This document shows, piece by piece, positions 6,562 through 34,148 of a stretch of DNA of 39,090 bases. The stretch covers positions 1 to 39,090 of the forward strand of contig JAFGMY010000174.1 of assembly GCA_016927325.1 (NCBI GenBank). The letters run 5' to 3'. A program made the translations under genes and the position numbers. Under the pieces are notes generated by a model that saw nothing but the letters and a program-made list of their open reading frames with translations, searched no databases and was not told where the DNA came from. Numbering within the stretch: position 1 is the stretch's first letter; each line of letters begins with the position of its first letter. The stretch comes from Actinomycetota bacterium (GTDB lineage: Bacteria; Actinomycetota; Geothermincolia; Fen-727; Anoxymicrobiaceae).

Positions 6562-6593
6562 AGACACGTCTCCCCCCTTTTTTGGGCGTGTCT
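6562..6593. repeat. Inverted repeat between convergent genes
   Basis: AGACACG (6562-6568) pairs with CGTGTCT (6587-6593), and the loop contains C6-T6-G3. It lies about 110 bases after the exoprotein stop. It may end transcription, but no T tract follows on either strand, so the terminator role is doubtful. Confidence 0.3.
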
Positions 6594-6731
6594 CTCAGGC
6601 GCGCATTGTCAATCCAGGGCAAGGAGTCCCGGTCTTGAATAAAAAAGGGAAGGCATACCGATGCTTATGATCTTTTCTCAATGAAAGAATAGTGTATTTG
6701 AATCAGAGACTGACTGATCCGTGGATAAAAC

Positions 6732-14912: not shown

Positions 14913-15208
14913 CCCCATCAGACGGGGTCTGTCAGGCCTCGTCTGATGGGGCAATCCCGGTCCTGGATAGAACCGGGCTGAATGGAGTAAATTACAAACT
15001 CCATGAAGATTGTGTCGGGACTCTCAGTCCCGCATGTGGTTTGGCTTAGTCCGCACCGGAGGGTACGGACCACAAAAAAAGGGGAGATCGGCTCGGGTAC
15101 GGACCTCCACAGAAAAGAAACCGTTTCGGCGCGACGCCCCCCTCCCTTTGTGGCGGGACTCTCAGTCCCGCAGGCCGAAAGCATGACCGGTGCCAGACGA
15201 AAGTCTGG
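14913..15208. repeat. Cluster of hairpins and short repeats
   Basis: About 300 bases hold a series of inverted repeats: a perfect 12-bp stem (14913-14924 with 14940-14951), CCCGGT/ACCGGG (14956-14977), ATGGAGT/ACTCCAT (14982-15004), CGGGACT-ctc-AGTCCCG (15016-15032), GTCCG/CGGAC (15049-15070), the same CGGGACT hairpin again (15154-15170) inside TTTCGGC/GCCGAAA (15124-15130, 15174-15180), and CCAGAC-GAAA-GTCTGG (15193-15208). GGGTACGGACC is a direct repeat (15061-15071, 15095-15105). Frames across it translate to repeated CGTESP or GLSVP words, a mark of repeat DNA rather than protein. It looks like a REP-like or miniature-element cluster, or a structured RNA. Confidence 0.7.
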
Positions 15209-15257
15209 GCGGGGCTAAACACCTTTTATGTCACAGGGTGCTGCTAATATCCTTCAT

Positions 15258-22953: not shown

Positions 22954-23874
22954 TTGAAGAAAATATCAAAGGGCGCGCTTGAACTTATAGGCAATACTCC
23001 TCTCGTGGAGATAAAGAAGCTGAACCCCAATCCGGATGTGACGATACTGGCAAAGCTGGAAGGGTTCAATCCGTGCAGTTCCGTCAAGGACAGGATAGCC
23101 CTTTGCATGATAGAAGGCGCTGAGAGGCGGGGGGAGTTGACGCCGGGGAAAGTAATCCTTGAACCGACCAGCGGCAACACCGGGATCGGGCTCGCCATGG
23201 TCAGCTGTGTCAAGAGCTACGAACTGAAAATAGTAATGCCTGAAACCATGAGCGTCGAGCGCCGGCAGGTGCTGAAAGCATTTGGGGCGGAACTGGTGGT
23301 GACTCCCGGCGAAGAGGGAATGAACGGGGCGATTGAGGTGGCGCGGGCAATGGCCGAGGATGACAAGTATTACATGCCGGACCAGTTCGCCAATGAGGAC
23401 AACGTATTGGCGCACTACGAGGGTACCGGTCAGGAGATACTGGAGGCTACTGGCGGGGTGGACGTCTTCGTGGCGGGCATCGGCACCGGCGGGACGATAA
23501 TGGGGGTATCCAGAAAGCTTCGCGAAAGGGACCCCGGTCTCAAGGTTGTGGCTGTCGAACCTTTCCCGAACTCTCGGATACAGGGCCTCAGGAACCTTGG
23601 CGATTATGTTCCCCCTATAGTCGATATCTCCACTTTCAACGAGAAAGTAAATGTTGACGACAGGTCTTCGTTCAGGATGTCCAGGCAGCTTGTCAATGAG
23701 GAAGGCCTGTTTGTGGGAATATCGAGCGGGGCCGCAATGTGCGAGGCTTATCACCAGGCTTCAAAGCTGGAGGCCGGTACCATAGTGGTGGTGTTCCCCG
23801 ACAGGGGCGACCGGTACCTCTCGACCGAGTGTTTCAGCCATCAGCGCAACGACGTTCCTGTTCAGGATATATAA
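22954..23874 (+). CDS. cysK: Cysteine synthase (O-acetylserine sulfhydrylase type)
   Basis: 306 residues, TTG start at 22954 with GGAGGT (22941-22946) eight bases upstream. It is a fold-type II PLP enzyme: LIGNTPLVEIKKL, the PLP lysine Lys45 in SSVKDRI, the substrate loop EPTSGNTGIG, the phosphate loop GIGTGGT, and EGLFVGISSGAAM. It joins sulfide to O-acetylserine (or O-phosphoserine) to form cysteine. The start, motifs and length match CysK better than CysM, though close homologues also act on O-phosphoserine or as cystathionine synthase. It is single and has its own promoter. Confidence 0.9.
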   Translation: MKKISKGALELIGNTPLVEIKKLNPNPDVTILAKLEGFNPCSSVKDRIALCMIEGAERRGELTPGKVILEPTSGNTGIGLAMVSCVKSYELKIVMPETMSVERRQVLKAFGAELVVTPGEEGMNGAIEVARAMAEDDKYYMPDQFANEDNVLAHYEGTGQEILEATGGVDVFVAGIGTGGTIMGVSRKLRERDPGLKVVAVEPFPNSRIQGLRNLGDYVPPIVDISTFNEKVNVDDRSSFRMSRQLVNEEGLFVGISSGAAMCEAYHQASKLEAGTIVVVFPDRGDRYLSTECFSHQRNDVPVQDI

Positions 23875-23876
23875 AA

Positions 23877-23935
23877 CCGGCAGTGTCCCATGTTTCGTAA
23901 TACACCGGCATCATTGAAGACGGCACCGGTCAAAC
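23877..23935 (-). repeat. Diverged copy of the 70-bp dispersed repeat
   Basis: Read on the minus strand, this segment aligns with the tandem repeats at 32493-32632. It shares GTGTCCCATGT, TTCGTAAT and CCGGTCAAAC (plus-strand words), with two 2-base gaps. Its internal hairpin (23898-23903 with 23908-23913) keeps six pairs, two of them G-U. It begins directly after the cysK stop codon. Confidence 0.7.
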
Positions 23936-23995
23936 CATACTGATTCCAACTCCTGACTCCTGAATTCTAAATTCCTGTCCCCCTCCCATTTTCTC

Positions 23996-31037: not shown

Positions 31038-32468
31038 CTGAATCCGCTCGACCATGTATTTAAACCGCGTTCAATCGCTTTCTTTGGCGCTTCCAACAAC
31101 CCCATGACAATGGGGACCGGTCAGCTTTCTTCCCTGCTGCTGCAGGGATATGAGGGCAGGATCTACCCGATACACCCTGAAGAGGACACTGTTCTGGGGC
31201 TCAGGGCGTATCGGAAAGTGTCCGAACTCGAGGAACTCCCGGATCTTGCGGTAATCGTGCTTCCTACCAGGATCGTCAACCAGATACTGGAAGAGTGCGG
31301 TGGACTGGGCATAAAAGCCGCCGTGGTTATTTCGGGCGGGTTCCGCGAGGTGGGGGAGGCGGGTGCGAAGCTCGAAAAGGAGCTTCTGGAAATCGCCGTG
31401 AAGTACGGCATCACACTGGTCGGTCCGAACTGCATCGGTGTCAGCAACTTCCATATAGGGTTGAACACAACCTATTTCCCCTACGAACAGGAAGCGGGCA
31501 GTGTGGCAGTCATAAGCCAGAGCGGGACTTACAGCTGCCACATCTATACCTACGCCGAAAAGTCAGGGATAAAGCTGGGCCAGACCGTCAGCATCGGCAA
31601 CGCTACCGTCCTGGGAATCAGCGATTACTTGAAGTATTTTGCCGACGACCCGTCGATCAAGTCGATAGCGGTATATATCGAAGGCATATCGAACGGCCGT
31701 GAGTTCGTTGAAGCGGCGGAGTACGCAACCGCGAAAAAACCGGTTGTGGCCCTTTACGTGGGAGGCACCGGGTACGGTGCGCGGGCGGGAGGGTCGCACA
31801 CCGGTGCGCTTGCCGGACAGGACGAGCTTTATGAAGGCGTGTTCCACCAGAGCGGCATCATCAGGGCTAACACGGTTGAAGAACTGTTCGATTGGTCCTG
31901 GGCGTTGGCTACACAGCCCCTTCCGAGCTCCGACAGGGTGTGCGTGTTGACCAACTCGGGTGGTGCGGGGGCAAGCATGGCCGATGCCTGCGGCAGGGCG
32001 GGTCTTTCGCTGCCGAGGCTTTCAGAGGAAACCCAGGAGAAAATCAGGGAGCTCCTCCCGGGCACCGCCTCGACGATAAATCCTGTAGATATGACCTTTC
32101 ACCTCAACTTTGCGGACCTGCTTAAAACGGTCCCGGAGATTCTTTTCGAAAGCGGCGAAATCGATGGGATCGTGATGTACGGGATATTCGGAACTCATAT
32201 TTTCGAAGTTTTCAGGGACGGTCTCGGCGACCTGTTCAAGTTCCCGGTAGAAGATGCCAGGCCGATAATAAGAGGTCTGGTCGAAGGGTTTACCCGGTTC
32301 CCGGACGACACAGGCATCCCGGTCATAGTCTCAACTTTCATGGGTCCCGAAGACGAAGAGATCGCGTTCTTGAGAAGTAACGATATACCTGTGTCGCCCA
32401 GCCCCGAGAGGGCGGTAAACGCGATGGCGGCTCTGTGCCGCTATGCTGAGTACCGCCGTTCTTTGTGA
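31038..32468 (+). CDS. ADP-forming acyl/acetyl-CoA synthetase alpha subunit, CTG start
   Basis: 476 residues. The first ATG (31104) would cut away part of the CoA-binding Rossmann domain, since VFKPRSIAFFGASNNP lies upstream of it. The only start-like codon after the preceding in-frame stop is CTG at 31038, which has AAGGGAG (31025-31031) six bases ahead, so a CTG start is inferred. Domains: CoA-binding (1-125), succinyl-CoA-ligase-like flavodoxin part with VISQSGTY, and the phospho-His motif GGSHTGALAG. The C-terminal ligase part ends near 476. It conserves thioester energy as ATP from acetyl- or other acyl-CoA. The ATP-grasp beta subunit is not adjacent. Confidence 0.85.
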   Translation: MNPLDHVFKPRSIAFFGASNNPMTMGTGQLSSLLLQGYEGRIYPIHPEEDTVLGLRAYRKVSELEELPDLAVIVLPTRIVNQILEECGGLGIKAAVVISGGFREVGEAGAKLEKELLEIAVKYGITLVGPNCIGVSNFHIGLNTTYFPYEQEAGSVAVISQSGTYSCHIYTYAEKSGIKLGQTVSIGNATVLGISDYLKYFADDPSIKSIAVYIEGISNGREFVEAAEYATAKKPVVALYVGGTGYGARAGGSHTGALAGQDELYEGVFHQSGIIRANTVEELFDWSWALATQPLPSSDRVCVLTNSGGAGASMADACGRAGLSLPRLSEETQEKIRELLPGTASTINPVDMTFHLNFADLLKTVPEILFESGEIDGIVMYGIFGTHIFEVFRDGLGDLFKFPVEDARPIIRGLVEGFTRFPDDTGIPVIVSTFMGPEDEEIAFLRSNDIPVSPSPERAVNAMAALCRYAEYRRSL

Positions 32469-32492: not shown

Positions 32493-32632
32493 GAAAGTCT
32501 GACCGGAGCCACATCTTTAATAATGTTGACGCATTACGAAAGACATGGGACACCGGGGTTAAGAAAGTTTGACCGTTGCCACGTCTTTAATAATGCTGAT
32601 GCATTACGAAAGACATGGGACACCGGGGTTAA
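32493..32632 (+). repeat. Tandem 70-bp repeat, two copies
   Basis: Units 32493-32562 and 32563-32632 are about 91% identical, with their last 32 bases identical. Each contains a hairpin: 32521-32536 (one G-U pair) and 32591-32606 (all Watson-Crick), so the stem is kept while bases vary. Unit 2 ends in TTAA, which supplies the stop codon of the serpin on the other strand. A third, diverged copy lies at 23877-23935. Confidence 0.9.
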
Positions 32633-34059: not shown

Positions 34060-34075
34060 TCGCGGTACTCTATCT

Positions 34076-34148
34076 GGTGCCTGGCACCAAGTGATGCAAA
34101 ATGTCGCATTTGGTGCCAGGCACCAAATGCGGCACCAAATGCGGCATA
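34076..34148. repeat. REP-like palindromic element
   Basis: A perfect 15-bp inverted repeat (34076-34090 with 34110-34124), whose arms are themselves near-palindromic (GGTGCCTGGCACC), encloses a small ATGC/GCAT stem. Next to it the word AAATGCGGCA is repeated in tandem (34125-34134, 34137-34146). It resembles REP elements moved by Y1 (RAYT) transposases. None is in the window. Confidence 0.75.

Follow-up and report, generated by a model that had tools for sequence, protein, structure and literature searches.

The closest described systems are the TIR repeats of TIRYT elements (Di Nocera et al. 2013, PMC3733652; tnpAREP subclass 2.1, Quentin et al. 2018, PMC6006769), palindromes that are present in tens of copies per genome, form dimers or clusters and share homology with the inverted ends of Y1 genes. 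These properties recur in a hairpin repeat family, hereafter the main family, to which a 70-bp tandem repeat in the window belongs; the window is the whole 39,090-nucleotide stretch analysed here, contig C61 of a 2.47 Mb genome in 178 contigs that is 82% complete. The main family differs from TIRYT repeats in its imperfect, covarying stems, its two tip forms and its nested copies, in that no enclosed transposase gene was found, and in its diverged ends: the published motif GGGGWSAS, which the TIR of a sister genome (GGGGTCAG) fits, is replaced by GGTGCC and GGGACACC, with TGGGACAC one mismatch off. Since GGGGWSAS holds for most but not all TIRYT repeats, we describe the family as working like, or derived from, such repeats and do not claim strict membership.

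GTAG- and CGTC-tagged REPs, REPINs and BIMEs are likewise short intergenic palindromes located mostly downstream of genes, and GTAG REPs reportedly provide a TAG stop codon through their termini (PMC3733652). The main family is a REP in the broad sense of many extragenic palindromes per genome (76 copies, with 0 of 59 analysed loci inside a gene), but the stop it supplies is TAA, and the unpaired GTAG or CGTC tag at the hairpin foot is absent; the conserved feet are AAAGTTTGACC and ATGGTGTTYAACC, and CGTC occurs only inside some long tips. Its clusters are direct tandems or nests of a single orientation, unlike the head-to-head pairs of REPINs and BIMEs. Rickettsia palindromic elements are also mobile palindromes that overlap coding ends, but they lie in frame inside coding sequences, where none of the 59 main-family loci was found. 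Integron attC sites share the imperfect hairpin, a GTTRRRY-like end and the location at gene ends; they differ in that we found no intI, no cassette arrays and no match to the R″ box for the main family.

Copies in the window and across the genome

Tandem Repeats Finder called a direct tandem at 32493-32632 (period 70, 2.0 copies, zero indels), and its two copies are 91% identical, with 6 differences, much as an earlier note made from the sequence alone had described them. The tip stem singled out there survives in both, as TAATGT/GCATTA with a U-G end in copy 1 and TAATGC/GCATTA with a C-G end in copy 2. The window contains two further copies, and the features concerned are as follows.

15178..15223, plus strand: fourth copy, short type, GCATGACCGGTGCCAGACGAAAGTCTGG...GGGGCTAAACACC, overlooked by the earlier note
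22954..23874, plus strand: gene for a PLP-dependent enzyme (PALP fold), whose end adjoins the third copy
23876..23936, minus strand: third copy, diverged, its right end facing the stop of the 22954-23874 gene
31104..32468, plus strand: acyl-CoA synthetase gene (CoA-binding / succinyl-CoA ligase-like), which stops 24 nt ahead of copy 1
32493..32562, plus strand: copy 1, long type, orientation GAAAGTCTGACC...GGGGTTAA, matching the long-type (R2) model at 72 bits
32563..32637, plus strand: long-type copy 2, carrying the conserved right end GGGGTTAAACACC and matching the R2 model at 86.5 bits, the best in the genome
32629..33852, minus strand: serpin gene, its 3′ end overlapping copy 2
32629..32631, minus strand: TAA stop of the serpin gene, within the right end of copy 2 (minus-strand reading GGT GTT TAA)

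Each tandem copy forms a long imperfect hairpin that is more stable than its shuffles on both strands (z -2.4 and -3.5 on the plus strand, -4.2 and -5.6 on the minus strand), and the pair folded together reaches z -4.9. The third copy is inverted relative to the tandem. In the alignment its tip retains six pairs (two of them G-U), but the entire copy folds no better than shuffles (z +1.0 and +0.05), so the claim that it also pairs is weak here.

The repeat is by no means unique to this locus. BLAST returned 41 matches of the unit in the host genome, and covariance models built from 23 short copies and from 22 long copies (R2) matched 56 (E <= 0.01) and 64 places, respectively. Merged, these matches amount to 76 distinct places on 48 contigs, an approximate count in that one locus may be represented twice, at the ends of contigs C8 and C113. 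Many copies lie near contig ends, as expected because assembly breaks at repeats. Beyond the host genome, the short-type pattern was found in none of 147-148 other relatives and in neither a scan of 84,980 species nor viral contigs; four viral pattern matches were dismissed as chance, the hairpin element itself being absent there. The window copies matched no phage or plasmid, and the repeat had no structured-RNA match in Rfam up to E = 1. Among 30 other genomes of the class, the short-type model gave one borderline match, in G004, which proved to be an unrelated perfect palindrome.

All members have the form of an imperfect hairpin whose ends, AAAGTTTGACCGGTGCC ... GGGACACCGGGGTTRAACACCAT, are conserved. 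In the direction used by the earlier note the layout is AAA-GTTTGACCGGTGCC-[tip]-GGGACACCGGGGTTRAACACC-AT, with a base stem CCGGTG/CACCGG followed by a short or a long tip, and conservation begins abruptly at AT|GGTGTTYAACC. The short tip is CCAGTCTRAAGGCTGG, which gives an element of 47 nt in all, whereas the long form measures about 70 nt and has many tip sequences (TTTTGC..GCAAAA, AATGC..GCATT, TTTTCCC..GGGAAAA, TTTTCA..TGAAAA). Across the 22 long copies, 84.7% of cells are paired, and in 15 of 28 pairs both partners have changed. Double-change cells number 51, whereas shuffles gave 19.7 +/- 3.1 and slid controls no more than 29, and the covariation score is 0.295, compared with 0.142 +/- 0.013 in shuffles and at most 0.094 in every slid control. 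The covarying hairpin first proposed from the copies in the window is thus strongly borne out. The short type points in the same direction and is too uniform to decide the matter. Selection, enzyme recognition or arm-to-arm copying (template correction) could each have produced such covariation.

Copies are also found within copies. At seven places (N1-N4, N7-N9), both outer arms match un-nested copies above all 300 shuffles, and three further places give weaker evidence of nesting; the inner copy has the orientation of the outer one in 10 of 10 cases (two-sided p 0.002, with C8 and C113 counted once). Concentric shells are seen in contig C14, where one inner copy is enclosed by two complete outer left halves and by three repeated right halves. 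The tandems in C61, C104, C122 and C168 are all direct, and no head-to-head pairs were seen in the main family. At the unlinked loci L056, L052, L048/L014 and L122, short-type copies are nested in long-type tips, possibly a record of successive insertion waves.

Homology to the terminal inverted repeats of Y1 transposases

In relatives, the R2 model found near-perfect palindromes (GGGGTCAGGTCTTTCATTTTGC...), which were rejected as main-family members; it was because these matches proved to be different palindromes that the link to TIRs was found. In the same class, Y1 (HUH tyrosine) transposases are bounded by terminal inverted repeats, GGGGTCAGGTCTTTCATTTTGC, and it is these that the long arms of the main family match. 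Most of the 30 Y1 loci scanned, 28 of them in relatives, have inverted GGGGTCAGG ends around the gene, and ends of this type are the motif published for TIRYT elements (PMC3733652, PMC6006769). The left arm of a copy in contig C89 matches the GGGGTCAGGTCTTTCATTTTGCATACC TIR at 18 of 21 positions, a score reached by 0 of 300 shuffles, and two other copies match the TIR of sister genome G023 at 15 of 17 positions (0 of 300 shuffles each). This homology spans about 20 nt and is confined to a minority of the copies: the majority of arms score no higher than shuffles, and most other copies have drifted too far for the likeness to show.

G023 carries a complete 1,186-bp element whose TIR ends enclose exactly one gene, Y1_Tnp, and the same genome also contains palindromic derivatives of 91-133 bp and of 56 bp. 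It is through this sister genome, and not through the host genome, that the main family is homologous to the inverted ends of a Y1 gene, and on the strength of the arm matches to the G023 TIR we therefore read the main family as a TIR-derived, non-autonomous Y1-type element. Counting against this reading, the host's own two Y1_Tnp genes are flanked by other hairpin families (GGTGCCTGGCACC and GGCGGGCCTTTCAGGCCCGC), and no main-family copy lies in the roughly 3 kb read around either in this assembly of 178 contigs and 82% completeness. Mobilisation by the two resident genes was accordingly rejected, each being flanked by its own repeats. Nor did the intervals between close main-family copies yield a transposase, only housekeeping-type genes. 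A text search of papers for the TIR letters returned unrelated matches only.

Several other palindromes were seen alongside the main family. Positions 34074-34135 of the window hold a different, near-perfect palindrome, CTGGTGCCTGGCACCAAGTGATGCAAAATGTCGCATTTGGTGCCAGGCACCA, identical to the repeats that flank the Y1 gene in contig C4, and likely a resident Y1/REPIN-type family. The repeats GGCGGGCCTTTCAGGCCCGC and GGGGCTGAAAGCCCC, which flank the second Y1 gene (L036 1000-1960), make up a further resident palindrome family. Another hairpin family, in which the CTCTCAG loop is conserved while the stems change (GGCGCGTCTCTCAGGCGCGC; GGCGGGACTCTCAGTCCCGC), lies at 6581-6605, 15010-15034 and 15148-15172 of the window; the loci read have about ten such hairpins, frequently beside main-family copies.

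Position relative to stop codons and tRNA ends

Genes in the host genome were predicted with a purpose-written codon-usage caller, so single gene-to-element distances may be wrong; the pattern is strong nonetheless. At 41 of 51 sites the right end of the element faces the 3′ end of the neighbouring gene or tRNA, where random intergenic placement would give 46% (p 6e-7), and at 27 of the 51 it lies -12 to +7 nt from the stop codon or tRNA end, where 3.3% would be expected (p 9e-27). The earlier observation that copies lie next to stop codons therefore holds with far greater exactness than was claimed. Eleven genes use the TAA inside the element as their stop, and where the right end is intact most of them read ...GGT GTT TAA; a twelfth ends on a neighbouring TAA, and in five genes a TAA or TGA is completed by the first base of ATGGTG. 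RNA genes follow suit. Six tRNA genes have a copy 4-7 nt past the CCA end and two more at 26 and 58 nt, and the tmRNA gene is followed by a copy after 5 nt (L098 1501-1736); at several tRNAs, these six included, and at the tmRNA the right end points toward the 3′ end of the RNA gene. The serpin gene of the window illustrates the outcome. Its homologues in other genera end in GSIVDPS-stop, compared with GSIVDPNSGV-stop here, and since they stop at the same residue, the element was inserted at the native end and the gene is not truncated. The serpin itself (Pfam PF00079, E 1e-113) directly abuts the repeat, and homologues are present in 6 of 29 other class genomes sampled.

The related elements of G023 are likewise precise in position. 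At least one end falls precisely on a stop codon in 11 of 13 complete elements, and 15 of 26 ends do so, 14 at -1, where TA is joined to the first G of the TIR (TA|G), and one at 0. Of the TAs available, 2.7% belong to stop codons (p 4e-16); the null weights every intergenic TA equally, which favours the effect if 5′ regions are closed to insertion. Orthologous sites come from the congeners G017 and G028, and at 5 of 5 interpretable ones the congener without the G023 element has a native stop at the same codon (TAG, TAG, TAA, TAG and TGA; a sixth site, L195, was unreadable). These empty sites concern the related elements of G023 and not the main family, for which none can be read because the host genome has no congener in the set. 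Three of the sites lie between convergent genes, and the element is touched by both stop codons. At two of the five, G028 has a different sequence at the same stop codon, starting GGGGGTCAG or GGGGGTCGTG, and these may be independent insertions; the one that was folded forms an imperfect hairpin, which as a whole is no better than shuffles. Among the orthologous sites of G017 and G028 (L205-L233), different palindrome-like sequences were seen on the same stop codons, which suggests that the same landing sites are used repeatedly by different families.

It is conceivable, though in our judgement improbable, that the hairpins are primarily RNA elements, terminators or 3′-end stabilisers kept by selection after stops and tRNA ends, and owe their similarity to past copying. 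The conserved stem pairing, the orientation that 41 of 51 copies share relative to the upstream gene and the right ends facing the 3′ ends of tRNAs and the tmRNA (six tRNAs and the tmRNA at 4-7 nt) would all fit such a role, and translation can be influenced by REPs that lie no more than 15 nt from a stop codon (PMC12306157). The stems are, however, followed by only about three T (A makes up 60-67% at three flanking positions), a terminator scan found no terminator-like site, and the sense strand folds better in just 24 of 45 cases, so there is no consistent strand preference. Moreover, selection for a 3′ hairpin does not need the exact fusion to stop codons seen in G023. Judging by position, an RNA role as terminator or stabiliser could have been added later.

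Considerably less probable is that the family is a MITE in the classical sense, derived from a DDE transposon with TA target duplication (IS630/mariner-like); the Y1 genes of G023 would then be unrelated passengers. In 8 of the 13 G023 elements TA lies on both sides, and insertion at a TA would agree with several of the empty sites. This counts against a Y1 enzyme, because a TA-duplicating DDE element would look the same; the flanking TAs may be a 2-bp duplication, or the TA may be part of the element. Y1 enzymes are neither known nor expected to make target duplications (PMC2817692). Against a DDE origin, the TIRs of G023 enclose exactly one gene and that gene is Y1_Tnp, inverted GGGGTCAGG ends flank most of the Y1 genes sampled in the class, and main-family copies are flanked by AAA or AT and not by TA on both sides.

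That the copies are attC sites of integrons, where recombination takes place at cassette gene ends, is barely credible: one end (GTTAAAC/GTTGAAC) fits the R′ box GTTRRRY and extrahelical bases lie on one arm of a hairpin at gene ends, but the copies are singly dispersed beside housekeeping and tRNA genes with no cassette arrays, Xer-type partial matches omit profile positions 181-246, the site of the integron-integrase extra segment, and the attachment-like sequence entertained by the earlier note is unsupported because no integron integrase scored above cut-off in this 82% complete genome (TIGR02249 fell below) and the left box, mostly GTTAGAC or GTTTGAC, departs from the R″ consensus RYYYAAC.

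Proposed mechanism and its meaning

Collectively, we favour, with a probability of roughly two in three, the reading that the main family is a non-autonomous TIR-derived palindrome (MITE/REP-like) of the kind moved by TIR-flanked Y1 HUH transposases (TIRYT/RAYT branch). The suggestion that the unit is a mobile repeat is upheld by its 76 dispersed copies, by the nested and tandem arrangements and by the homology to the TIRs of Y1 transposases. The transposase would be missing from the genome, or would have escaped recovery in the draft. It would take the hairpin, in single-stranded form, as its substrate and insert it in a single orientation; both the identity of the enzyme and the single-strand pasting are what we infer. 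Surviving insertions would be those at gene 3′ ends, with the element end fused to the stop codon, TAA in the main family and TAG in the related GGGGTCAGG elements of G023, and by virtue of this fusion the upstream protein would be essentially unchanged. New copies would enter the tips of older ones in the same orientation, producing nested hairpins, and some would duplicate in tandem. The position at stop codons may reflect either target choice by the enzyme or selection that removed other insertions.

More tentatively, and with the odds against it, Y1/TIR palindromes in general might aim at stop codons, including the overlapping stops of convergent genes, with different families obeying the same rule and each bringing a base that completes the stop (TAG with GGGGTCAGG ends, TAA in the main family, TAG in GTAG REPs). 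A single insertion would then leave both neighbouring proteins intact. The location of REPs downstream of genes and the frequent supply of a TAG stop by GTAG REPs are already published (PMC3733652); as far as the searched literature shows, the main family, its nested architecture and the base-exact insertion at stop codons with empty sites are new. REP-like palindromes are common in bacteria and their route to gene ends is unsettled. The base-exact position, together with empty sites that retain a native stop, turns a vague downstream bias into a testable rule, be it one of target choice or of selection, and a safe landing site that spares both neighbouring proteins would be relevant to the design of gene-insertion tools.
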